From: Pseudolabrys sp.
GTDB taxonomy: Bacteria > Pseudomonadota > Alphaproteobacteria > Rhizobiales > Xanthobacteraceae
Direction: 5' to 3'
Length of the DNA: 64,000 nucleotides
NCBI GenBank assembly: GCA_030655215.1
Contig: JAURVZ010000086.1
Coordinates: 62,001-126,000 of the forward strand
Part shown: positions 13,777 through 41,384 of the stretch, piece by piece
Numbering within the stretch: position 1 is the stretch's first letter
How the letters are laid out: each line of letters begins with the position of its first letter
The notes under the pieces: generated by a model
What the model was told of the DNA's origin: nothing
Databases searched by the model: none
Seen by the model: only the letters and a program-made list of their open reading frames with translations
Made by a program: the position numbers and the translations under genes

Positions 13777-14778
13777 GTGAGTATTGGACTGATTGCGCTG
13801 CTCGACGATATTGCGGCGCTGGCCAAGGTGGCGGCCGCTTCGCTCGACGATGTCGCCAGCCAGGCAGTCAAAGCCGGCGCCAAGGCGGCCGGCGTCGTGA
13901 TCGACGATACGGCGGTGACGCCGGGTTATGTCATCGGGTTTTCCGCGAAGCGCGAATTGCCGATCGTCGGCAAGATCGCCGCCGGCTCGCTGCGCAACAA
14001 GCTGCTGATCCTGTTGCCGGCCGCTTTGGGCCTCAGCTATTTCCTGCCATGGCTGGTCACGCCGCTGCTCATGTTCGGCGGCGCCTATCTTTGTTATGAA
14101 GGCGCCGAGAAGGTCTATGAAGCGATCTGGCCGCACAGCGCGCATGCGCATGAGGCGAAGCTGGAAACAGTGGCGCTGAATACAACCTCGCTTGAAGACG
14201 AGAAAGTGGCCAGCGCGGTCAAGACCGATTTCATCCTGTCGGCCGAGATCATGGCGATTTCGCTGGCTGCGCTGCCGGTGTCCAATGTCTGGACGCAAGC
14301 GCTGGTGCTCGCTGTCGTCGGCATCGGCATCACTGTTGCGGTCTACGGCGTGGTGGCGCTGATCGTGAAGGCCGATGATGTCGGCCTTCATCTCGCCCAA
14401 AATACGTCGACCTCGGCGCTCGGCAGTATCAGCCGGGGCTTCGGCCGCGGCCTTGTGCTCGGCATGCCGTATTTTCTGAAAGTCCTCAGCGTTGTCGGCA
14501 CCGCCGCAATGATCTGGGTTGGCGGCGGTATCGTGCTGCATGGCATCGAGGCTTACGGCCCGCCGGCGATCCATCATGCGGTCGAAGGCGCCGCCAATGC
14601 CGTGGCGCAGGCGGTGCCGGCCATGGCCGGTGTCCTGCATTGGGCCGTTGTTGCCGCCATCTCCGGCGTGCTCGGTCTTATCATCGGCGCAGCACTGCTG
14701 CCGGTGGTCGAGCATGTCATCGCGCCGGCATGGCGCGCGTTGAAGGCCGCTTTGCCCTTTCGCAAGAAGAGCGTCTAG
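13777..14778 (+). CDS. DUF808 family inner-membrane protein (YedI-like)
   Basis: A 333-residue membrane protein. The N-terminus SIGLIALLDDIAALAKVAAA followed by SLDDVASQAVKAGAK is typical of DUF808/YedI. There are about seven hydrophobic segments and the conserved PLLMFGGAYLCYEGAEKVYE block. The function of the family is not established. GTG 13777, preceded by AAAGG, fits family starts better than the TTG six bases earlier. It appears to stand alone and converges on the methyltransferase gene. Confidence 0.9.
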   Translation: MSIGLIALLDDIAALAKVAAASLDDVASQAVKAGAKAAGVVIDDTAVTPGYVIGFSAKRELPIVGKIAAGSLRNKLLILLPAALGLSYFLPWLVTPLLMFGGAYLCYEGAEKVYEAIWPHSAHAHEAKLETVALNTTSLEDEKVASAVKTDFILSAEIMAISLAALPVSNVWTQALVLAVVGIGITVAVYGVVALIVKADDVGLHLAQNTSTSALGSISRGFGRGLVLGMPYFLKVLSVVGTAAMIWVGGGIVLHGIEAYGPPAIHHAVEGAANAVAQAVPAMAGVLHWAVVAAISGVLGLIIGAALLPVVEHVIAPAWRALKAALPFRKKSV

Positions 14779-14799
14779 GCGCGGCGGCCTTCACGCCGT

Positions 14800-15846
14800 T
14801 TACGGCCGCGCTTCCAGGATCATGTTGAACGGCGTTGCCGCCGCCTTGCGGAAGCGCGAGAAGCCGCCATCACGCACGACGTCGCCGATGCGTTTGGCGC
14901 CAGCCTGCGCACCGAGCGCCAGACCGACATCCTGGTTGAGAGCGGTCGGCACGCAGATGTGCGTCGAGCCGGCGTAGTAGACGCGGCCGACAGGATTGAG
15001 GTTGTCGGCAAGGCTATCGCCCGCCGCCGGCTCGACCAGCATCAGCGTGCCATCCTTCTTCAACGCCTTGCGAATATGCGCGACCGCACCGACCGGATCG
15101 CCCATGTCATGCAAGGCATCGAACATGGTCACCAGATCAAAATCGCCGCCAGCGAAGTCCTGTGCCTTGGCGACCTCGAAGCGGATGTTCTTTTCACCGT
15201 TCACCCGCTCGCTCGCATGAGCGATCGAACCCTCGTGATAGTCGATGCCGATGAATTCCGAGTTTGGGAAGGCCTTGGCCATCAGCTGCGTTGAGATGCC
15301 GTGGCCGCAGCCGACATCGGCCACCTTGGCGCCGCGTTGCAGCTTGGCAATCACGCCATCCAGCGCCGGCAACCATTCACCGATCAGGTTGGCGCGATAG
15401 CCGGGCTCAAAGAAACGGGCAATGCCGCAGGACAGGCAGTTGCAATGCTCGTCCCAGTGAATGCCTTTGCCGGTCTTGAACGCCTCGGCGAGCTTCGGTT
15501 CGTCACTGTAGACGGCTGACATCACATTGAAGCCGCCGAGCATGAAGACCGGGCTGTCCTCGATGGCGAACACCGCCGCCTGCTCGGGCGACATCGAAAA
15601 CTTGCCGGTTTCCCAGTCGTAATCGACGAAGCGCGATGCCGCCTGGGCACAAAGCCACTCGCGCACATAGCGCTCATGCGTGCCGGTTTTCGTCGCCAGT
15701 TCGTCCGGTGTCGCAGGGGCTTCGGCCAGCGCACGGAAAAGGCCGAGCTTGTCGCCGAGGATCACCAAAGCGCCGTTCGACGCAGCGCCGAGTTCGTTGA
15801 CCACGGTGCCGAGCAACAGCTCGAGCTTGCTCATATCCAGATTCAT
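14800..15846 (-). CDS. SAM-dependent methyltransferase, Rv2258c-like
   Basis: A 348-residue class I methyltransferase. An N-terminal winged-helix region (about residues 1-95, with ALVILGDKLGLFRALAEAP) precedes the Rossmann domain. The SAM motif VADVGCGHGISTQLMAKAFP and the acidic loop FIGIDYHEGS are present. This arrangement matches Mycobacterium Rv2258c and its relatives, whose substrate is unknown. ATG 15846 with GAGGTAGAGA upstream is preferred to an earlier start 30 bases upstream. A 7-bp GC inverted repeat (14779-14785 with 14805-14811) lies at its 3' end, where it converges with the DUF808 gene. Confidence 0.9.
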   Translation of the reverse strand: MNLDMSKLELLLGTVVNELGAASNGALVILGDKLGLFRALAEAPATPDELATKTGTHERYVREWLCAQAASRFVDYDWETGKFSMSPEQAAVFAIEDSPVFMLGGFNVMSAVYSDEPKLAEAFKTGKGIHWDEHCNCLSCGIARFFEPGYRANLIGEWLPALDGVIAKLQRGAKVADVGCGHGISTQLMAKAFPNSEFIGIDYHEGSIAHASERVNGEKNIRFEVAKAQDFAGGDFDLVTMFDALHDMGDPVGAVAHIRKALKKDGTLMLVEPAAGDSLADNLNPVGRVYYAGSTHICVPTALNQDVGLALGAQAGAKRIGDVVRDGGFSRFRKAAATPFNMILEARP

Positions 15847-15966
15847 CGTCTCTACCTCAATGGGGGATGGCGTCATGTCGCGCCGTTGCGGCAGGGCTTA
15901 GCGCTTGCCGCCGCGGCGGGGTGAGAGGCAGAATGGCCGCCTCCGTGCCATTTGAGCCAAAGCCGC

Positions 15967-17003
15967 ATGCGCCAGAAGCCCGTCAGCGTCAGCATTCCGG
16001 TGTTTGCCGAGTGCGACCCGTCGATCATCTACGGCGTGTTCGACACTTTGTGGGCCGCCGGCCGCGCGTGGGAGAACTTCCCGGGGGGCGGGCCGGATGC
16101 GCTGTTCGAGCCGCGGCTGGTCGGCGTTGACGACAAGCCGTTGCAGTTGATTACCGGTGTCAGCATCATTCCGCAGGACACGATCAAGGCGGTGAAGAAG
16201 ACCGATATCGTCTTTGTGCCGAATGTGCTGATCAGTGGTGCGCAGTCGCCGAGCTTGCTCGACCGCCGGCTGATTGCCTGGATCAAGCGCATGCACCAGC
16301 AGGGCGCCCAGCTTTATGCGGCATGCGGCGGCGCGATCGTTCTGGCCGAGACCGGCTTGTTGAACGGACAGGAGGCGACGACGCATTCGTCCTACGCGCC
16401 TTTGTTTCGCAAGCATTATCCGACTGTGACGTTGCGGGTCGAGCGCATCCTGGTGCAGAGCGGCGCCGCGCAAAGCCTGGTGTGCGGCGGCGGCGCGTCG
16501 TCATGGCAGGATCTGGCGCTGCTCTTGGTCGCCAAGCACGGCGGCACCGAAGAAGCGATCCGCATGTCCAAGCTGTTTCTCTATCAATGGCACCGCGACG
16601 GCCAATTGCCCTATGCGTCCATGATCCAGAATGTGATCACGGCGATGCCGTCATCCTGCATTGCCAGCAATGGATCGCGCAGCACTATGAGCGGCAGGAC
16701 ATCGTCGGCGAATGCGTGCGGCAATCGGGGCTGGCGAAGCGCAGCTTTGACCGGCGTTTTCGCGCCGCGACCGGCTATTCGCCTTTGTCCTACGTGCAGA
16801 CCTTGCGCGTCGAGGAGGCGAAGCAGTTGCTGGAAACGAGCGCAGCGGCGGTCGAGAAAATCGGCCGTGAGGTGGGATACGAGGATGTCGCGTCGTTCCG
16901 GCGCTTGTTCAAGAAGGTCACCGGCATCGCGCCGGGCGACTACCGGCGCAGCTTTCAGTTGCCGGCCGTTGTCGGCAAAGCTGCGGGACAAGCCCGCCGC
17001 TAG
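15967..17003 (+). pseudogene. GlxA-type AraC-family regulator disrupted by a frameshift
   Basis: The first part (about 225 residues from ATG 15967) is the DJ-1/PfpI-like sensor domain of GlxA-type regulators, with CGGAIVLAETGLLNG and VCGGGASSWQDLALLLV. The AraC-type DNA-binding domain (RQSGLAKRSFDRRFRAATGY and VGYEDVASFRRLFKKVTGI) continues in a different frame and ends at 17003. The switch lies near 16635-16645, consistent with loss of one base. Without the shift the protein would be about 345 residues, normal for the family. No slippery run is visible, so a real mutation or a sequencing indel is more likely than programmed frameshifting. It abuts the sugar transporter genes, which it may once have controlled. 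Confidence 0.85.
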
Positions 17004-17936
17004 CTATTCCTTCACCGCGCCGGTCATGGCCGAGACATAGTGCTCGACGAAGAAGGCGTAGAGGATAACCAGCGGCAGCGAGCCGATCATCGCGCCGGCC
17101 ATCAGTGAACCCCAGCGATAAATATCGCCGTCGACCAGCGCCGTGACGATGGCGACCGGCACGGTTTTATACTGCGTTGATGAGATGAACGTCAGCGCGT
17201 AGATGAATTCGTTCCAGCACAAAGTGAAGCAGAAGATGAAGGCCGAGATCAGGCCGGGAATGGCCAGCGGCAGCACGATCTTGACCAGGATCTGCCAGCG
17301 GCTGGCGCCGTCGATCAGCGCGCATTCCTCAAGCTCGAAGGGAATCGTCTTGAAGTAGCCCATCAGCAGCCAGGTCGAGAACGGAATGAGGATCGTCGGA
17401 TAGGTCAGGATCAGCGCGAACGGCGTATCGAACAGGCCGTACTGGAACACGACCGTCGACAGCGGGATGAACAGGATCGACGGCGGCACGAGATACGCGA
17501 GGAAGATCGCGCCGCCGACCCATTGCGCGCCTTTGTAGCGCAGCCGGACGATGGCGTAAGCGGCGAGCACGCTGGCGAAGATCGACAGTGCCGTGGCGCA
17601 GGTCGCGATCAGCATCGTGTTCCAGAGCCAGACTGGATACTCGGTCTCGAACAGCAGCTTGGCGATGTGCTTGAGCGTCGGGTTCCAGGTCCAGAACGGG
17701 CTGTAGGTTTCGAAGTCGAGTAACTGCTCGTCCGGTTTGATCGATGTCAGCGCCATCCAGTAGAACGGGAACAGCAGCACGACCATGATGATGCCGAGCG
17801 GCAGATAGAGCGTGACCAGCCGGCGCGGCAGGCTTTCGAGATAGCTCATGCCTTCCGAGGCGTCATCCGCCGCGGCCGATGAGCCGTGCAATGTCGTTTT
17901 CGGATCGGCGACCTTGTTGGCGAGGAGATCAGTCAT
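17004..17936 (-). CDS. Carbohydrate ABC transporter permease, MalG/UgpE type
   Basis: A 310-residue permease with about six membrane segments and the coupling-loop sequence ELEECALIDGASRWQILVKI (EAA motif). It pairs with the UgpA/MalF-like permease encoded just upstream; the two genes overlap by 8 bases. ATG 17936, with AAGGTGG upstream, is preferred to an in-frame GTG 9 bases earlier. Its stop directly abuts the disrupted GlxA-type gene on the other strand. Confidence 0.93.
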   Translation of the reverse strand: MTDLLANKVADPKTTLHGSSAAADDASEGMSYLESLPRRLVTLYLPLGIIMVVLLFPFYWMALTSIKPDEQLLDFETYSPFWTWNPTLKHIAKLLFETEYPVWLWNTMLIATCATALSIFASVLAAYAIVRLRYKGAQWVGGAIFLAYLVPPSILFIPLSTVVFQYGLFDTPFALILTYPTILIPFSTWLLMGYFKTIPFELEECALIDGASRWQILVKIVLPLAIPGLISAFIFCFTLCWNEFIYALTFISSTQYKTVPVAIVTALVDGDIYRWGSLMAGAMIGSLPLVILYAFFVEHYVSAMTGAVKE

Positions 17937-32556: not shown

Positions 32557-35532
32557 GTGGGGCCGTTGTCGATCGAGCAAGTCCTGGCCGCGGAAGCCAG
32601 AGCCATCCATGACCTGCGCAATCCCGAGATCAAGGCGGTCGTTGATAGGCTCGATCAACTCGCGGCGGCCGCGGCAAAACCTGACAGCAAGCGCGCGCAG
32701 AAGGATTCGGATGAACGCAGCGGCGTTGAGGAAGAACGGCAGGTGGTGCGCGATCGCAGGGAATTCTATCGCGAACTCGGCAAACTCAGGAGCGCGGCAC
32801 TTTGCCTGTCCGGTGGCGGAATTCGAAGCGCCACGTTTGGCCTCGGCATCATCCAGGCGCTGGCGCAATACAGGCTGGATGGCGAACCGGCGGAGAAGCG
32901 CATCACCCGCGATGCGTACGAGGCGAATGCCAACGAATGCCTGCTGAGCCGATTTCACTATCTGTCGACGGTGTCGGGCGGCGGTTATATCGGTTCGTGG
33001 CTGTCGGCATGGCGGCAGCGCAACGACTTCCCGACGGTGTGGCGAAATTTGTCGAGCCGGCCAGACGGGCCGGATGTCGAGGCGCCTGAGATTTCGTGGC
33101 TTCGCGCCTACAGCAATTACCTGACGCCCAAAGTTGGCCTGTTCTCCGCAGATACATGGACCGGCATTGCCATCTACATCCGAAATTTATTGCTGAACTG
33201 GCTGGTGATCATTCCGGCGGTAGCCGTTGTGCTCGCCGTTCTCAAGATGATCGTCACCGGTTCGGTCTGGCTTGCCGGCATTGATCAGGTCTGGTGGCCG
33301 CATGCGCTTAGTTTGCTGGCTGGCATCGCCTGCCTGATCTTGGCGCAGAGATTTGCCACGCACTATCGCCCGACGCGGCGGCCGCCACCGCCACCTCTCC
33401 CGAAGCCACCCGCCGAGCGCGTCGATCCGAACAACATCGACCAGACGCGCTATCTGTTGAATGGCCTGATCTGGAGCCTGCTCTCGGCATTGCTGGTGAC
33501 AAGCACGCTGACTTCCGCGGTTGGCGTAAGGCTCGCTGGCGACGCTTCTAGCGGGGGGGCGCTTATATTGGGCGCTGTCGCCGGAATGATCATTTACGCC
33601 TTAGGCTGGATTGCCGGCTTGCCGGAGAACAACCGGCTGAAGGACTTTCTGCGCTGGTCGGCGTCCGGGTCGGTCTATGGCGGGCTTGTCGGTCTCGGCG
33701 CCTATCTCTTCACGCTGATGATGCCCTATGCCGACATTTGCCCGCGGTCGATCTGGAACCTGCTCATTCCCATTGTCTTCGGCGTGCCGTGGGTGCTGTT
33801 CTCGCAGTTGGCCGCCGACATGATCTTCGTCGGGCTGGTCAGCTATGAGGCCAATTCGGACTCCGACCGGGAATGGCTTGGCCGCGCTGCCGGGTGGCAG
33901 GCCGCCACGGCGGTGATCTGGATTCTGGCGACCTTCATCACCTTCGCCGGCGGCTATTTCCTTCTCGACGACGTCTACGGCAAACACATCGCTCCCTATC
34001 TCGTTTCCGCCGGCGGCATCTCCGGTGCGCTGACCGCATGGCTCGGCAAGAAAGGCTCCGGCGACGCCAAACCGAAGCTGGAGAAACAACCGGCCTCGGC
34101 CATCGCCAAGAAATTCGGCATGGCGCTGGCAGGTCCGGTCTTCGCCGCGCTGCTTGTGGTCGGCATATCCGTTGTGCTCGACAAGCTGTTGCTCGGCCGC
34201 TCCCTGCTTCTCGGGCTGACCGAGAAAACCTGGACGACCAGCTATATTCTCATCTGGCTTTCGATCGGCCTTGCGGTCGCCTTTGTCATTGCCTGGATTG
34301 CATCGCGCAACGTCAACATCAACCGCTTCTCGATCCATGCGCTGTATCGCAACCGGCTGGTGCGCGGCTATCTCGGTGCATCGCGCCCGGATCGTTATCC
34401 GGACCGCTTCACCGGTTTCGACGAAGACGACAACCCGGACATTCACGAACTCTGGCCGCCCAAGGCGATCGAGCCGAGCAAGAAGAACACCTATTGCCTG
34501 TTCCACGTTGTCAACATCACGCTCAACATCGTCGAGGCGACACGCCTTGCCTGGCAGCAGCGCAAGGCTGAATCCTTCACCGTCACGCCGTTGCACTCCG
34601 GCACGTTCCACAAGGGCTACCGGCCGAGCATTGAATACGCCAGCCCGCGCGGCGGGATCTCGCTCGGCACCGCCATGGCAATTTCCGGCGCGGCGGCAAG
34701 CCCGAACATGGGCTACAACTCGTCCACATCGGTAACGCTGCTGCTTGCGCTTTTCAATGTGCGACTCGGCTGGTGGCTCGGCAATCCCGGCAAGGAAGGC
34801 GAGAGCACCTATCAGGAAGAAGGCCCGTCGACGGCCATCCGACCCCTGGTCGAAGAGACGTTCGGTCTGACCACAGATACCAAGCCCTGGGTTTATCTGT
34901 CCGACGGCGGTCACTTCGAAAATCTCGGCATCTACGAAATGGTACGGCGGCGCAACCGCTTTATCCTTGTCGTCGATGGCGGCTGCGATCCGGATTACAA
35001 ATTCGAGGATCTCGGCAACGCCATTCGCAAGATCTACATCGATCTTGGCGTTCGCATTTTCATCAAGGACCTCGACCAGCTGCGAAACCGGCCGACCGCT
35101 GACGTGCTGGCCGTGGCGATAAAAGCGCTGGGCGAGGCGGAGGAGAAAGACAAACCGCCGATCCCGTACTTTGCGGTCGGCACGATTGGCTACCGGGAAG
35201 CCGATGGCGATGAATGCGAGGACGGCGTGCTGCTTTACGTCAAGCCGGCCTATCACGGCGTCAGCAGCGTCGAGGATGCCGGCGTGCGCAGCTATGCCAA
35301 TGAAAGCCAGAGCTTCCCGCACGAGCCAACCGGCGACCAGTGGTTCACCGAGTCGCAATTCGAAAGCTATCGCTCGCTGGCTTTCGATATCGCCCGCACC
35401 TTCATGAAGGGCCAGAAGATCATTCCGCCTTCTGAGAGAGAAGTGGCAACCGCGAAAGAGCAGGGGTCAAAGGCCCCTGGCAGCAGGAGCCTCGGTAGCC
35501 TCCTTGGCTCGCTGGCGCCGACTGTTCGCTAG
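32557..35532 (+). CDS. Membrane-embedded patatin-like phospholipase
   Basis: A 991-residue protein. The patatin oxyanion-hole motif GGGIRS is at residues 86-91 and the nucleophile elbow STVSGGGYIG has Ser140. The partner aspartate is Asp783 in SDGGHFENLG. Between Ser140 and Asp783 lie roughly eight or more hydrophobic segments (about residues 205-600), so the lipase domain is interrupted by a membrane domain. Patatins cleave acyl chains from glycerolipids. The start is a GTG at 32557 preceded by GGGGGGGCGA-type sequence. The cytochrome and GMC-fusion genes follow on the same strand with a 158-base gap. The C-terminus is Ser/Gly-rich. Patatin identity is firm; substrate and side of action are not. 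Confidence 0.88.
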   Translation: MGPLSIEQVLAAEARAIHDLRNPEIKAVVDRLDQLAAAAAKPDSKRAQKDSDERSGVEEERQVVRDRREFYRELGKLRSAALCLSGGGIRSATFGLGIIQALAQYRLDGEPAEKRITRDAYEANANECLLSRFHYLSTVSGGGYIGSWLSAWRQRNDFPTVWRNLSSRPDGPDVEAPEISWLRAYSNYLTPKVGLFSADTWTGIAIYIRNLLLNWLVIIPAVAVVLAVLKMIVTGSVWLAGIDQVWWPHALSLLAGIACLILAQRFATHYRPTRRPPPPPLPKPPAERVDPNNIDQTRYLLNGLIWSLLSALLVTSTLTSAVGVRLAGDASSGGALILGAVAGMIIYALGWIAGLPENNRLKDFLRWSASGSVYGGLVGLGAYLFTLMMPYADICPRSIWNLLIPIVFGVPWVLFSQLAADMIFVGLVSYEANSDSDREWLGRAAGWQAATAVIWILATFITFAGGYFLLDDVYGKHIAPYLVSAGGISGALTAWLGKKGSGDAKPKLEKQPASAIAKKFGMALAGPVFAALLVVGISVVLDKLLLGRSLLLGLTEKTWTTSYILIWLSIGLAVAFVIAWIASRNVNINRFSIHALYRNRLVRGYLGASRPDRYPDRFTGFDEDDNPDIHELWPPKAIEPSKKNTYCLFHVVNITLNIVEATRLAWQQRKAESFTVTPLHSGTFHKGYRPSIEYASPRGGISLGTAMAISGAAASPNMGYNSSTSVTLLLALFNVRLGWWLGNPGKEGESTYQEEGPSTAIRPLVEETFGLTTDTKPWVYLSDGGHFENLGIYEMVRRRNRFILVVDGGCDPDYKFEDLGNAIRKIYIDLGVRIFIKDLDQLRNRPTADVLAVAIKALGEAEEKDKPPIPYFAVGTIGYREADGDECEDGVLLYVKPAYHGVSSVEDAGVRSYANESQSFPHEPTGDQWFTESQFESYRSLAFDIARTFMKGQKIIPPSEREVATAKEQGSKAPGSRSLGSLLGSLAPTVR

Positions 35533-35690
35533 CCCGCGCCGCGCGAAAGTCACTGGCTGTGAAATCACCGGTTGCACGGAATGCGGGTTTGTATCAGGAT
35601 GCGCCATCTTAGGTTGCATCGGGCTACTTACGAAACTTACGCGTTTTCAAAGGGCTAAGCGGCAAAGCGCGCCGGAAAATGGGGGATGCG

Positions 35691-38267
35691 ATGATGATGG
35701 TTCGCCGTCCTGTTCTCGCTGTCGCCGCCTTCGCCGCGCTGCTCGCACTGTCCGGCTGCGGCAACGAGCCGGCGCCGGGGACGGTTCAGGACGAAGCCGC
35801 CGCCAATGGCCGCGATGCGGCCAGTTTTCCTGCTGCCAATGAAGATTATTTCGCCGATATGGATGGCGGCTACAAGCGCGCCAGCGATCCTAGCGTCGTG
35901 CTCAACGAACATGAAGTGAAAGGCCGCAATAACTGGAATGTCTGGACCGGCGGCAATGACCGCTTCTGGGACTACATGGCCAACAACACGTTTGGTGCCT
36001 TCGACCTGCTCAAGATCATCTCGTCGTCGCCGCGCATTGGCTTCTGCAAGGGTCCGGACGGCAAGGACAATGCCTATTCGGACTACGCCTCGCTGAGCGA
36101 GCAGCAATGCAAGGACCAGAAATTTACCTGGTTCACGCCGAACCGCAGCAACCGCTTCAGCTGGTACGGCCTGATCAACGAGCCGTGCTTCACGCAAGCC
36201 ACCAAGCCGGACAAATACGGCCTCTGGCTCGATATCCGCAATGGCACCGGCGAGGGTTGCGACAAGCCCGATCCCTTTGCCGACGAGAAGAAATATCCGG
36301 GCGTCAAATTCGGCGCGCGCGGCAAGAACATGCCGGTCGGTTCGTTCTATGGCGAGCCGACCGGCGTCGTCGGCCTGCGCCTGTTTCCCAACCCTGCGTT
36401 CGATGAGGCGGCGGAAAAGAAGTGGCTCGACGCCATCGCCAAGAACCAGGACGCCTATTACAGCGATCCGAAATTCTACAACAACAAGGACGTCATCCGG
36501 CCCTATCGCGTCGGCATGTCCTGCGGCTTCTGCCATGTCGGACCAGCGCCGACCAATGCGCCGAAGGATCCGGAAAATCCGCAATGGGCCAACCTGAATT
36601 CAAATCCCGGCGCGCAGTATTTCTGGGTTGACCGCATCTTCATCTGGAATCCGGTCGATGTGAAATCGAACTTCATCTTCCAGCTCTTCCACACGTCGCA
36701 GCCGGGCGCGCTCGATACGTCCTTCGTGTCGACCGACAACATCAACAATCCGCGCACCATGAATGCGGTGTACAGCCTCGGCGCGCGCCTGAAGGCGGGT
36801 GAGGCGTGGAAAGAGAAGCTCGCCGGTGGCGGGCTGAACAACAAGCAGTTCCAGGATTACCCGCAGACCAAGGTGGCGACGCAGCCATTCCATCCACCCG
36901 GCCTGTTCACGCCGAAGGACACGGTCTACACACCGCGCGTTCTCAAGGACGGCTCGGATTCGGTCGGCGCGCTCGGTGCGCTCAACCGCGTCTATCTGAA
37001 CATCGGCCTGTTCAGCGAAGAGTGGTTGCTGCACTTCAATCCGCTGGTCGGCGGCAAGCGCATCACGCCGATCCCGATCGCCACCAACGAGAAGAATTCA
37101 TCGTACTGGAAAGCGACCGAGAACCAGACCGCGGACCTGGCGCTGTTCTTCCTCAAGACCGGCAGGCCCGACAAACTCTCGGATACGCCAGAGGGCAAAG
37201 CCAGCCCGCCCGATGCGGCCAAGCTCGACCGCGGCAAGACTGTGTTCGCGGAAAATTGCGCGCGCTGCCATTCATCGAAGCAGCCGGCCAATGTCTGCCT
37301 CGCCGGTCAGCCCTGCACCAGCGGCCACATCGTCGAGAACACCGGCGAGTATTTCGAGTGGATGCGCAATGAGGTGAAGAAACCGGACTTCCTCGACAAC
37401 AACTTCCTGTCGACCGACCGCCGCGTTTCGATCCAGGAAATCGGCATCAATGCCTGCTCGCCTTTGGCGACCAATGCCATTCGCGACAACATCTGGGACA
37501 ACTTCTCGTCCGAGACCTACAAGACGCTGCCGGCGACCGGCAAGGTGACGTTCTACAATCCAATCGACGGCACGCCGTTCGATTACGACATGCCGGGTGG
37601 TGGCCGTGGCTATGTGCGGCCGGCGTCGCTGACCAGCATCTGGACCTCGGCGCCATTCCTGCAAAACAATTCGGTCGGCGATTTCAATGGCGATCCATCT
37701 GTCGATGGCCGGCTGAAAGCGTTCAACCAGGCCATCGAGCAGATGCTGTGGCCGGAGAAGCGCGCCAAGGATCCGTTCATCGGCGGGCAGGTGTCGGGCC
37801 CAAGTCATATCCTGCGCACCACGGGGACGAGCTATCTGAAAGTCCCGGCCGGTTATCTGCCCGGCGATCTTTCAACCATCGCCGGCAATTGGGGCGCCTG
37901 GCTGCATTATCTGGCGCCGTGGCTGTTCACCGACATTGGTGACATCGAGATCGGTCCAATTCCGAAAGGAACGCCGGTCAATTTGCTCGCCAACCTCAAC
38001 CCGCTGTCGGAAAGCACCGACCTGAAAGCCCGCGCCGCGCACACCAAGCAGCTTGTCGATCTGGTGTTCAAGCTGAAGAAAGACCTGAAGTCGTTGCCGC
38101 CGAACGCGACCGACGCGCAGGCGACAAAAGTCTTCGTCAAGCGCGTGCCGGAATTGCTGGCGCTCAACAAGTGTCCCGACTTCATCGTCAACAAGGGACA
38201 CTACTTCGGCAGCAACCTGGCAGACGAAGACAAGCGCTCGCTGATCGAGTTCCTGAAAACCATGTAA
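35691..38267 (+). CDS. Di-heme c-type cytochrome lipoprotein
   Basis: An 858-residue exported protein. A lipoprotein signal ends at Cys23 in LLALSGCGN. Two heme c sites are present: CGFCH (Cys278-His282) and CARCH (Cys523-His527), about 245 residues apart. The rest has many aromatic and asparagine residues, and the family is not recognised with certainty. Two hemes at this spacing in a large exported protein recall RoxA/RoxB rubber oxygenases and MauG/peroxidase relatives. ATG 35691 follows GGGGGATGCG; an ATG at 35679 is possible. The stop is 15 bases before the GMC-fusion gene, so the two are surely co-transcribed. A role as periplasmic electron acceptor or oxygenase is inferred. Confidence 0.85.
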   Translation: MMMVRRPVLAVAAFAALLALSGCGNEPAPGTVQDEAAANGRDAASFPAANEDYFADMDGGYKRASDPSVVLNEHEVKGRNNWNVWTGGNDRFWDYMANNTFGAFDLLKIISSSPRIGFCKGPDGKDNAYSDYASLSEQQCKDQKFTWFTPNRSNRFSWYGLINEPCFTQATKPDKYGLWLDIRNGTGEGCDKPDPFADEKKYPGVKFGARGKNMPVGSFYGEPTGVVGLRLFPNPAFDEAAEKKWLDAIAKNQDAYYSDPKFYNNKDVIRPYRVGMSCGFCHVGPAPTNAPKDPENPQWANLNSNPGAQYFWVDRIFIWNPVDVKSNFIFQLFHTSQPGALDTSFVSTDNINNPRTMNAVYSLGARLKAGEAWKEKLAGGGLNNKQFQDYPQTKVATQPFHPPGLFTPKDTVYTPRVLKDGSDSVGALGALNRVYLNIGLFSEEWLLHFNPLVGGKRITPIPIATNEKNSSYWKATENQTADLALFFLKTGRPDKLSDTPEGKASPPDAAKLDRGKTVFAENCARCHSSKQPANVCLAGQPCTSGHIVENTGEYFEWMRNEVKKPDFLDNNFLSTDRRVSIQEIGINACSPLATNAIRDNIWDNFSSETYKTLPATGKVTFYNPIDGTPFDYDMPGGGRGYVRPASLTSIWTSAPFLQNNSVGDFNGDPSVDGRLKAFNQAIEQMLWPEKRAKDPFIGGQVSGPSHILRTTGTSYLKVPAGYLPGDLSTIAGNWGAWLHYLAPWLFTDIGDIEIGPIPKGTPVNLLANLNPLSESTDLKARAAHTKQLVDLVFKLKKDLKSLPPNATDAQATKVFVKRVPELLALNKCPDFIVNKGHYFGSNLADEDKRSLIEFLKTM

Positions 38268-38282
38268 CTCAAGGAGAGGTCG

Positions 38283-41200
38283 GTGAGCGCGCAATCGCCT
38301 GGTTACGACTATATCGTTGTCGGCTCCGGCGCGGGCGGTGGCGTCGTCGCCGCGCGTCTGGCCGAGGCCGGGCACACTGTGCTGCTGCTGGAAGCCGGCG
38401 GCGATCCGAAAATGCTGCAAGGCGACGGGCCGGTGAGCAAGGACCGCTTGCCCGCCGATTACGAGGTGCCGTCGTTCCAGGCGATGGCGGCGGAAAACGA
38501 AGCGATGAAGTGGGACTTCTTCGTCCGCCATTACGCCGACGACGCGCAGCAGGAGCGCGACGATAAATTCGTCAAGGCGGAGAACGGCGTGCTTTATCCA
38601 CGCGCCGGCACGCTCGGCGGCTGCACTGCGCATAACGCCATGATCATGGTGTATCCGAATAATGAGGACTGGAACCATGTCGCGCAGCTGATGGACGATG
38701 ACTCGTGGTCGGCAAGCGCCATGCGTCGCTATTTCCAGCGGCTGGAAGACTGCAACCATCGTTTCTTCCTGCGCTGGCTCTACAAGCTGACGCGCATCAA
38801 TCCGAGCCGGCATGGTTTCTCCGGCTGGCTTTCGACCGAGAAGGCAATTCCGAAATCGGCGCTGAAGGATCACGAACTGGTCAACATCATCGAGAAGTCG
38901 GTGTGGACCACGTTCTGGAATCTGTCCGGGATTTGGGATCGCATTACCTGGTTCTTCAAGGGGAAGGGCGATCCGAATGACTGGCGGCTGGTGAAGAAGA
39001 ACGCCTTCGGCGTGCACTATCCGCCGCTGTGCACGCGCAACCACGCGCGCAACGGCACGCGCGAATTCCTCCTCGATGTGGCGCGCCGTTATCCCGAACG
39101 GCTGAAGATCGAACTCAACGCGCTGGCGACCGAAGTGCTGTTCGACGAGCGCAACTGCGCCATTGGCGTTGCCTATCTGAAAGGCGCCAAGCTTTATCGT
39201 GCGGCCTGGCAACCTTCGACGGCGCCCGGCACGCCGGCCAAGGCTTATTGCGGGCACGAGGTTATTCTCGCCGGCGGCGCCTTCAACACGCCGCAACTGC
39301 TGATGCTGTCCGGCATTGGGCCGAAGGCGGATCTCGAAGCGCTCGGCATCAAGACCCGCGTCAATCTGCAAGGCGTCGGCAAGAACCTGCAGGACCGCTA
39401 CGAGGTCGGCGTCGTCAACCGGCTGAAGAAGCCATGGTCGGTGCTGAAGGACGCCACTTTCACAACCAGCGATCCGCAATACGGCCACTGGAATAAATGG
39501 TGGCGCAAGGGCGTCTACACCACCAATGGCGCCGCCATCGCCATCATCAACCGCTCGCAAGCGTCGCGGCCGGTGCCGGACCTGTTTCTGTTCGCGCTGC
39601 TCGGCAAGTTCAAAGGCTATTTCCCCGGTTTCTCGAAAGTGGTCGCCGACAATCTCAATGTGCTGACCTGGTGCATTCTGAAGGCGCACACCGAGAACCA
39701 CGGCGGCACCGTCAAGCTGCGATCAACAGACCCGCTCGATCCGCCGGCGATCAACTTTCATTATTTCCAGGAGGGCACCGACAAGGACGGCGAGGACCTC
39801 GACTCGGTGGTCGATGGCATCCAGTTCATCCGCACGCTGACCAAGCCGATTGCCGATTTCATCGAAGAGGAGGAACTGCCGGGCAAGGCGCTGCAAACGC
39901 GCGAGCAGCTCGGCCAGTTCGTCAAGGACAATGCCTGGGGCCATCACGCTTCGTGCACCTGCGCCATCGGTCCACGCAGCGATCCGCAGGCGGTGCTCGA
40001 TTCGAACTTCCGCGTTTATGGCACCAGCAATCTGCGCGTGGTCGATGCGTCGGCGTTTCCGAAGATACCGGGCATGTTCATTGTCTCGGCTGTCTACATG
40101 ATTGCCGAGAAGGCGGCCGACGCGATCCTCACCGCCGCCGGCCACGGCACGCTGAACAAATGCATCTATGGCGAGGGCTTCTGGTGCAAGCTGCGCCGCG
40201 CCTTGTGCCGCGCCGCCGATGGCATCGCCGCCGTGTGGGCGTTCCTGGCGCCGGCGATCACGGCGTTGCTCGGTGTTGTTGGCGCGGTGGCGGCGGTGCT
40301 GGCGGTGATCGTGCTGGCCAGCTGGTTCTGGTTTGAAGTACCGCCAACAGTGCCCAATGCCAATAAGGAGCAGCGGGCGATCGGCAATCTGGTGACGCTC
40401 GCGGTTGCCGAGCAGCAGGCGCTTGACAAGGCGCGCGGCGTGGCGGCGCCGGCGGCCAATGCCTGCGTCAAGGCGAATGTCACGGTGAACCAGTATCTGC
40501 CGCCGCGGCTCAATGTCGGGTTTCTGGCCAGCGTGCCGAACGGCGAGCGCACCTACAAAGCCTGGGTGCGTTTCGCCAATGCGCGCGATACGCCCAGCGA
40601 TGACCGGAGGCGGGACTTTCGCAGCATGGCGGTCAAGCTGATCGGTGTCAGCGGCGAACGCAACCCGGTGGCGAATGACGAGGGCAATACGCAGGACCTG
40701 CTGTTCAACGGTCACGCCGCTTACTTCGCCGGCGATCCGCAGCAGCTTTACGGTTTCTATTCAGCCTGCGACAAAGGGGGCGGCTGCAGCTTTTTCAGGA
40801 ATGTGCACTTCGCCTGGCATGTCATCACCCATCCGCGCGGCGCCTATAATTTCTGGAAAGGCAGCAAGGCCTATCCGACATTGCAAAGCGTGGCGTGGTC
40901 GAGCGTCACACCGTTCGCGCTTGGCGACGCGCAGGTGAAATATGCGGCGACGCCGTGCGACCAGCAGGCGCAATATGGCAGGCGCGGCGATACGCCCTAT
41001 TATTTGCAGCAGCGATTGCAGGCGCGGCTCGATCCGGCCAACAACAATCATGTCTGCCTCGACCTGCGGGTGCAGGTGCGCAACGATCCGCCAAGCCAGC
41101 CGATCGACAATACGCTGGTGCCATGGGATGGCGATGTGACCGGATGGCAGCAGGTGGCGCGCATCGACATTTATCCGCAGGCGTTTACTTCGATGGCGCA

Positions 41201-41384
41201 GCAGCAGTTCTGCGAGCGGCTGGCCTACAATCCGTATCAGGGCCTCAAGGCGCATGCGCCGCTCGGCGGCATCAACCGCGCCCGCGGCGCCGTGTTGCCG
41301 GCCGTGCATGATGTGCGGCTGCAGGCGAATGGCTGGAAGCCGTTCGGCCCGAGTGAGGTGACGGGGAGCGAGGTGTTTAACTAA
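38283..41384 (+). CDS. GMC oxidoreductase fused through a membrane segment to a catalase-like domain
   Basis: A 1033-residue fusion. Residues 1 to about 620 are a GMC flavoenzyme: FAD motif [33 protein letters not shown], the GMC signature [17 protein letters not shown], and the active-site histidine region [12 protein letters not shown]. About residues 647-684 are uncharged and hydrophobic (one long or two short membrane helices). The remainder resembles catalase-like y4iL-type heme proteins ([29 protein letters not shown]), but Asn726 stands where the family has its distal histidine. It has several cysteines, which would suit the periplasm. GTG 38283 follows AAGGAGAGG. The GMC part would oxidise an alcohol; electrons could go to the cytochrome encoded just upstream. 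Confidence 0.88.

Follow-up and report, generated by a model that had tools for sequence, protein, structure and literature searches.

We analyzed a 64,000-nucleotide stretch of a Pseudolabrys sp. genome (hereafter the window; contig JAURVZ010000086.1 of assembly GCA_030655215.1, a draft of 3.64 Mb in 93 contigs with 80% completeness), in which three consecutive forward-strand genes encode a patatin-like acyl hydrolase, a di-haem c-type lipoprotein and a GMC flavoenzyme fused to a catalase-like domain (Table 1). The initial annotation had described three large same-strand genes with the last two 15 bases apart, and the open reading frame (ORF) coordinates agree: 15 nt separate the di-haem and GMC genes, and 146 or 158 nt separate the patatin and di-haem genes, depending on whether the di-haem ORF is read at full length (862 residues) or from ATG 35691 (858 residues). 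No terminator-like site was found on the forward strand of the patatin–di-haem spacer in a scan that returned 2 promoter-like sites (2.7 expected) and 14 terminator-like sites (9.5 expected). All four parts are under purifying selection, with ratios of nonsynonymous to synonymous substitution rates (dN/dS) of 0.12–0.23 against two or three same-genus relatives: 0.12–0.17 for the di-haem and GMC parts, 0.18–0.22 for the catalase-like part (three relatives) and 0.20–0.23 for the patatin (two relatives).

Table 1. Features of the patatin, di-haem and GMC genes in the window
Feature	Position	Strand	Evidence
Patatin-like acyl hydrolase (991 residues, GTG start)	32557..35532	+	PF01734 E 3.4e-6; motifs, hydropathy
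Predicted nucleophile Ser140 of patatin (STVSGGG)	32974..32976	+	pattern [STG]xSGG
Predicted catalytic Asp783 of patatin (SDGGHFENLG)	34903..34905	+	DGG motif
Di-haem c-type lipoprotein, RoxA/CcP-like clade (start maybe ATG 35691)	35679..38267	+	
Lipobox cysteine C27 (LSGC)	35757..35759	+	sequence
Haem 1 site CGFCH (282-286)	36522..36536	+	CxxCH
Haem 2 site CARCH (527-531)	37257..37271	+	CxxCH
Gln662 where MauG/RoxA motif PYLHNGSV has His	37662..37664	+	alignment
C-terminal His841 (GHYFG)	38199..38201	+	invariant in 15/15
GMC–catalase-like fusion, whole ORF (1033 residues, GTG start)	38283..41384	+	
GMC flavoenzyme domain, residues 1-620	38283..40142	+	PF05199 E 4.3e-28, PF00732 E 1.2e-16
Hydrophobic linker between GMC and catalase-like domains, residues 644-688	40212..40346	+	hydropathy
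Catalase-like domain (catalase-related / allene-oxide-synthase family), haem-ligand Tyr absent	40350..41381	+	

Domains of the three proteins

The patatin carries the oxyanion GGG motif, the Ser and the Asp of patatin-like phospholipases, and its PF01734 score of 27.8 bits lies barely over the curated cut-off of 27.7. We take Ser140 to be the nucleophile and Asp783 the catalytic Asp; between the two motifs, hydropathy indicates an inserted multi-helix membrane block (residues ~204-588). The DGG motif occurs in all 11 patatins scanned and [STG]xSGG in 10, the Mesorhizobium copy having PVSGG, which falls outside the pattern. An anti-phage effector role was considered and set aside, as no PADLOC match at E ≤ 0.01 was found for a patatin effector among four patatin-bearing proteins; PADLOC returned one weak GMC match (E 0.005).

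By the lipobox rule, the di-haem protein is a lipoprotein. Both of its CxxCH sites are invariant in the 15 aligned window-type proteins (window counted), and the MauG-motif position holds His in three of them and otherwise Gln, Leu or Ser. By motif comparison with descriptions in the available parts of two sources (PMC4496055, PMC10837239), His841 is likely the equivalent of RoxA H641, the distal ligand of haem 2. When 11 window-type and 4 distant members were combined into a profile, hhalign aligned it to RoxA-like proteins (98.8%, E 1.2e-16, 116 columns around haem 2); one member of that RoxA-like set, searched by itself, matches the RoxA structure 4b2n at E 1.8e-5, and the di-haem profile itself reaches E 0.086. 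The haem-2 region also matches Pfam cytochrome c models weakly. Membrane attachment takes three forms across the family: a lipobox in the window, an N-terminal helix in Rhizobium, and inserted helices in Mesorhizobium and CCGE531.

The GMC part has the FAD-binding motif and both the N- and C-terminal GMC domains. Among the best solved relatives of its profile are choline oxidase/dehydrogenase, a chloramphenicol-inactivating oxidoreductase and fatty acid photodecarboxylase, and it resembles the choline dehydrogenase and MftG models with scores under their cut-offs. GMC oxidoreductases have a second catalytic His/Asn near the C-terminus; the C-terminal stretch here is PKIPGMFIV, its PG.F common to all 18 aligned copies, and placing the His/Asn residue relative to it would take a structure.

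The C-terminal third of this protein belongs, to judge from profile comparison, to the catalase-related family, a relationship that is weak or absent when only the fused copies are used. The part had no match to the Pfam catalase model at E ≤ 1 and, alone, no related match in the PDB; the fused copies plus one paralogue gave a weak match to 1u5u (E 0.062). It is homologous to proteins annotated as "catalase family protein", for example in Paracoccus yeei (tblastn E 2e-22), and a profile of three fused and five other members matches 3e4w (E 2e-11), the allene oxide synthase 1u5u (E 4e-10) and catalases (from 1e-8). The proximal haem ligand in the catalase-related family is a Tyr. Its position holds Leu or Met in all five GMC-fused copies, and the Tyr is kept in all 12 other copies (nine free homologues, that of Nostoc aligned only with a one-residue gap, and three alpha-dioxygenase fusions). 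At the distal H-x-K-x-H-G stretch, both His are gone from four fused copies and one is kept in L021; in L034 and L035 Asn replaces the first His. The domain fused to the window GMC is thus probably haem-less and not a catalase, and the loss of the ligand from every fused copy speaks against a part for it in the peroxide detoxification that the initial annotation suggested, as one option, for heme domains. The domain is nonetheless maintained (dN/dS 0.18–0.22).

Conservation of the gene block in the genus and on plasmids

Five of the 36 genomes of the genus carry the di-haem gene (the window's own included). The same five have close patatin orthologues, two more have distant patatin homologues, and the GMC–catalase fusion occurs in the same four of the 24 other genus genomes searched (35 others exist). 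The order patatin, di-haem, GMC, catalase-like is kept at the four same-genus loci (L020, L021, L022 and L023), the patatin of L022 running off its contig. Farther out, the di-haem family is sparse: a threshold of E ≤ 1e-20 gives 6 genomes among 397 of the order, 7 among 385 of the class and 5 among 398 in a phylum sample, with distant members and the window's own genome counted each time; around two other finds it was present in 2 of 194 and 1 of 4 genomes. Among named matches, the di-haem gene is closest to one in a Pseudolabrys metagenome-assembled genome (88% identity). A single-sequence scan of genome contigs returned three loci, and a scan of viral contigs gave no match.

At all 14 other readable loci (L015-L023, L029, L035-L037 and L044, four of them same-genus), the gene next to the window-type di-haem gene encodes a GMC of the same clade; this count excludes L028, which ends inside the di-haem gene. 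On plasmids, the GMC gene lies beside the di-haem gene in 21 of the 21 records that have the latter (20 by coordinates in the di-haem and GMC match lists, Mesorhizobium by reading the locus). A patatin is part of the block in 20 of these records: in 17 it is of another patatin family and directly follows the GMC gene, and in three it is fused to the GMC enzyme (1562 residues in Mesorhizobium, 1537 in CCGE531 and CCGE532), the fused part being homologous to the window patatin (E 9e-29 and 1e-20). Sinorhizobium sp. B11 (CP091033), with no patatin in the block, is the sole exception. The neighbourhood is therefore kept in the genus, at other loci and on plasmids, contrary to what would be expected if the initial annotation's grouping were spurious, and the evidence that patatin, di-haem and GMC genes form one recurrent unit in bacteria of soil and roots is strong. 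Distances among di-haem and GMC proteins also correlate (r 0.94, reached in 0 of 5000 permutations); we draw no conclusion on interaction from this, since common descent by itself can produce such a correlation.

Several variants accompany this unit. In rhizobial-type operons (L015, L016, L018, L029 and L044) the unit is joined by genes for an Old-Yellow-Enzyme-like protein, for two RoxA-like cytochromes and for a small membrane protein, and an alpha/beta hydrolase is present in L036 and L037. Distant di-haem relatives (L030-L034, L038, L045-L049) have no window-type GMC in the stretches read, several of which are cut by contig ends; their partners include RoxA-like pairs (L031, L032, L045-L048), a patatin (L031), and a catalase-like protein with a DyP-type peroxidase (L034). 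Five of these loci (L031, L032, L045, L047 and L048, with L046 in part) share a recurrent operon of a second, distant di-haem clade, which adds a ~320-residue protein, a protein of variable length and two RoxA-like cytochromes, with a patatin also in L031.

Further observations concern individual loci. A DyP-type peroxidase gene stands beside a catalase-like gene near di-haem genes at L034:5152-7960 and L035:14818-17529. In Sinorhizobium fredii CCBAU 45436 the patatin is divided between two overlapping frames (L015:12466-15355), which suggests that the gene is broken or frameshifted. For the Rhizobium patatin at L016, the idea that its N-terminal part is the missing catalase found no support: that part is hydrophobic and has no BLAST match to the window GMC–catalase protein. 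On a Rhizobium ruizarguesonis plasmid (L064:8764-13701), a window-type patatin is followed by a short GMC fragment and short c-type cytochromes. Caspase-domain proteins are encoded near two GMC loci (L029:14576-17299 and L055:11807-14599). In the window, the 3' end of the GMC gene overlaps that of a convergent amidohydrolase gene by 8 bases (41377-41384); this gene directly follows the module, where same-genus L020 has a PAS histidine kinase, a LuxR-type response regulator and a CRP/FNR-type regulator (14278-17220), a trio that we take to be FixL-FixJ-FixK-like.

Links to fatty-acid oxygenases

The same protein families recur near enzymes that oxygenate fatty acids. The best plasmid match of the window GMC is in the cyanobacterium Calothrix sp. 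PCC 6303 (50% identity, pCAL6303.01), where the gene order is animal-peroxidase-family gene, hypothetical, transposase, hypothetical, GMC and patatin, with the GMC and patatin genes overlapping and 2.5 kb between the peroxidase-family gene and the GMC. Matches to the fatty acid alpha-oxidase 4kvj (E 9.5e-121) and the alpha-dioxygenase 4hhr (2e-113) identify the peroxidase-family protein as an alpha-dioxygenase. CalDOX, an alpha-dioxygenase of Calothrix parietina, is active on C10-C14 fatty acids according to the available part of its description (PMC8720084); it is a possible counterpart of the PCC 6303 gene, and the strain list of C. parietina does not contain PCC 6303. A 303-residue hypothetical protein at the Calothrix locus was considered as a degenerate catalase, without support (hhalign probability 0.1%, no PDB match).

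In at least five plasmid records (four Rhizobium, one Phyllobacterium), matches to alpha-dioxygenase and to window-type patatin lie 3.3–3.5 kb apart, as judged from two match lists covering the best 40 of 41 and 15 of 19 records. The two records read, Phyllobacterium and Rhizobium jaguaris (L062:3284-10773, L067:2918-10773), encode a window-type patatin (34–35% identity), a thiamine pyrophosphate (TPP) enzyme and then a fusion in which a catalase-like domain, of the same family as that of the window, forms the N-terminus of an alpha-dioxygenase. This block looks like a fatty-acid alpha-oxidation cluster. A RoxA-like protein adjoins an alpha-dioxygenase in R. phaseoli and stands two genes away from one in Qingshengfaniella, and in Paracoccus yeei and Methylobacterium currus the neighbour of a catalase-like gene is another animal-type peroxidase. 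On two Methylobacterium plasmids (L043, L053), the genes for a window-type patatin and a di-haem cytochrome c peroxidase are divergently oriented, and a cytochrome P450 is encoded nearby. A Streptomyces plasmid (L066:1766-9737) groups a benzoylformate-decarboxylase-like enzyme, an FAD-linked oxidase, a P450, an alpha/beta hydrolase and an alpha-dioxygenase.

Proposed function and alternative explanations

We propose, with modest confidence, that the locus is an accessory lipid-oxidation (oxylipin-type) module in which acyl release, di-haem oxygenation and GMC oxidation would act in turn, a chemistry read from the association of protein families. The membrane patatin, by its fold and catalytic motifs, would cut acyl chains from membrane lipid. 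The lipid-anchored di-haem protein would oxygenate the acyl chain with O2 to a hydroperoxide or the corresponding alcohol, a step suggested by its RoxA-like two-haem architecture and by the alpha-dioxygenases that accompany the same GMC and patatin families at other loci. The membrane-tethered GMC flavoenzyme may then oxidise the hydroxy or hydroperoxy lipid to a carbonyl, and in rhizobial versions the Old-Yellow-Enzyme-like reductase could go on to reduce the enone. The lipid would need to move within or across the bilayer. The catalase-like domain, putatively descended from a hydroperoxide-processing haemoprotein, is probably kept for folding, docking or substrate binding. The release-then-oxidise scheme at the membrane put forward in the initial annotation thus survives as the best reading of the recurrent unit, the GMC–patatin fusions and the Calothrix alpha-dioxygenase, with its chemistry still putative; for the polymer hydrolysis proposed alongside it, nothing was found in support.

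A broader interpretation, which we hold only tentatively and at a little under even chances, is that these loci belong to a mosaic family of bacterial oxylipin operons, in which a patatin, an interchangeable haem dioxygenase, a catalase-related haemoprotein and a flavin oxidase are shuffled or fused. The haem dioxygenase would be either the new membrane-anchored di-haem clade or an alpha-dioxygenase, the flavin oxidase a GMC or another enzyme, and the catalase-related part free, fused to an alpha-dioxygenase, or degenerate and fused to a GMC. Such operons, often on plasmids of root-associated bacteria, might be analogous to the plant lipase–lipoxygenase–allene oxide synthase–reductase route.

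PA2077 and PA2078, the oleate diol synthase of Pseudomonas aeruginosa, belong to the RoxA group and act on unsaturated fatty acids; PA2077 converts oleate to 10-H(P)OME and requires the histidines of both haem sites (PMC4496055, available part). They share two CxxCH sites, a C-terminal His ligand and a relationship to RoxA with the window protein, and are likewise two-haem c-type proteins, with signal peptides. They differ in being two di-haem paralogues of about 630 residues that keep the MauG His, whereas the window protein has ~860 residues and has lost it, and no patatin or GMC partner is named in the available part of the same source. RoxC members are described as di-haem (some tri-haem) lipoproteins whose function is given as unknown, with oxidation of unsaturated cell-wall fatty acids suggested (PMC10837239, available part). 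The window protein differs from the RoxA/RoxB/RoxC rubber oxygenases in its replaced MauG His and in its score of 17.9 bits against a RoxC cut-off of 900. Fatty acid alpha-dioxygenases, represented in Calothrix sp. PCC 6303 close to a patatin and a member of the same GMC family, have an animal-peroxidase fold, whereas the oxygenase candidate of the window is a di-haem c-type protein. The coral allene oxide synthase–lipoxygenase and related haemoproteins (1u5u, 3dy5, 3e4w) belong to the same catalase-like family and are fused to or stand beside a lipid-oxidising enzyme, as in the window; in contrast to the coral domain, that of the window has no haem-ligand Tyr and has a GMC as its fusion partner. 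No description of patatin, di-haem and GMC(-catalase) in combination was found among the papers listed by searches of the open-access literature (12 of 106 in one case), judged by title and abstract start.

A number of observations weigh against the lipid-oxidation module. Topology is its weak point: haem c is attached in the periplasm, and 15 of 16 GMC N-termini have no export signal visible by eye before the FAD motif (the exception, L037, has a hydrophobic stretch), so that direct passage of electrons from the GMC to a periplasmic haem is awkward. The di-haem protein reaches no curated NCBIfam cut-off and falls far below those of the four models it touches (CytoC_perox NF040606, 38 of 150 bits), with no RoxA or RoxB match reported at E ≤ 0.01; the MauG-motif His is gone from 12 of the 15 window-type proteins; and equivalents of RoxA W302 and F317 are not assignable in a structure model with a predicted local distance difference test score (pLDDT) of 30. 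Predictions reached pLDDT 30 for the di-haem protein (four sequences) and 32 for the catalase-like domain (three sequences). The gene association also has exceptions. BLAST with the patatin queries gave no match in the stretches read of L029, L035, L036 and L044, and many of the plasmid records (Rhizobium) are close relatives rather than independent cases. No di-haem gene was found by BLAST in the stretches read around a Microvirga GMC copy or around the second GMC of same-genus genome G007, which lies near aminotransferase and SUF genes. The patatin homologues of three related genomes (G008, G017, G045) have no CxxCH gene nearby, and the annotated neighbours of the catalase-family loci in Nostoc, Paraburkholderia and Roseomonas include no lipid oxygenase. 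BLAST gives no match between the Calothrix and window patatins, a transposase stands between the Calothrix alpha-dioxygenase and the GMC, and the full-length plasmid patatin closest to that of the window (Azospirillum, 37.8%) has no annotated haem, GMC or catalase neighbour; because of the transposase and the Azospirillum case, we consider both the module and the mosaic family slightly less likely. The second GMC of G007 (L057:9045-10922) is ~50% identical to that of the window and has no catalase domain.

Other explanations account for parts of the data. GMC dehydrogenases with a cytochrome acceptor include the fructose, gluconate and FAD-glucose dehydrogenases, and the window GMC could similarly oxidise an alcohol while the di-haem protein serves solely as an electron carrier to the respiratory chain. 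The adjacency of the two genes at all readable window-type loci fits this scheme, as do the sub-threshold resemblance to choline dehydrogenase and MftG and the weak cytochrome c match of the haem-2 region; we nevertheless regard it as unlikely, since the cytochrome is RoxA/CcP-like with two haem sites rather than tri-haem, nearly all GMC N-termini lack an export signal, and the patatin fusion and alpha-dioxygenase partners are left unexplained. Membrane lipid repair, with the patatin removing peroxidised chains, a di-haem peroxidase reducing hydroperoxides and the GMC clearing aldehydes or alcohols, seems to us somewhat less probable again. The CcP/MauG superfamily contains peroxidases (PMC4496055, available part), and L034 and L035 both have a DyP gene with a catalase-like gene in the vicinity of di-haem genes, but an oxygen-inserting alpha-dioxygenase partners the same GMC and patatin families elsewhere and the catalase domain has lost its haem ligand.

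We give little credence to RoxA-type oxidative cleavage of an isoprenoid or hydrocarbon, with a lipase and the GMC processing the fragments: the di-haem protein is indeed related to RoxA-like proteins, but its RoxC score is far below cut-off, RoxA and RoxB are absent from its reported matches, and the patatin and alpha-dioxygenase partners point toward acyl chains. That the genes are chance neighbours, each with a separate role, is very improbable; patatin homologues without haem neighbours and the G007 second GMC copy would suit it, but it is already contradicted by conservation, with recurrent blocks and fusions in several families.

To our knowledge, few bacterial oxylipin systems are known. 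If the lipid-oxidation module is correct, an operon for lipid release, oxygenation and flavin oxidation would extend them to scattered Alphaproteobacteria and beyond, as a bacterial counterpart of plant and animal lipid-signal making, and would suggest a function for RoxC-related di-haem lipoproteins. The fusions make this hypothesis directly testable with few genes. The bacteria concerned would include root-nodule bacteria that carry the genes on plasmids, in which lipid signals to plants are plausible.

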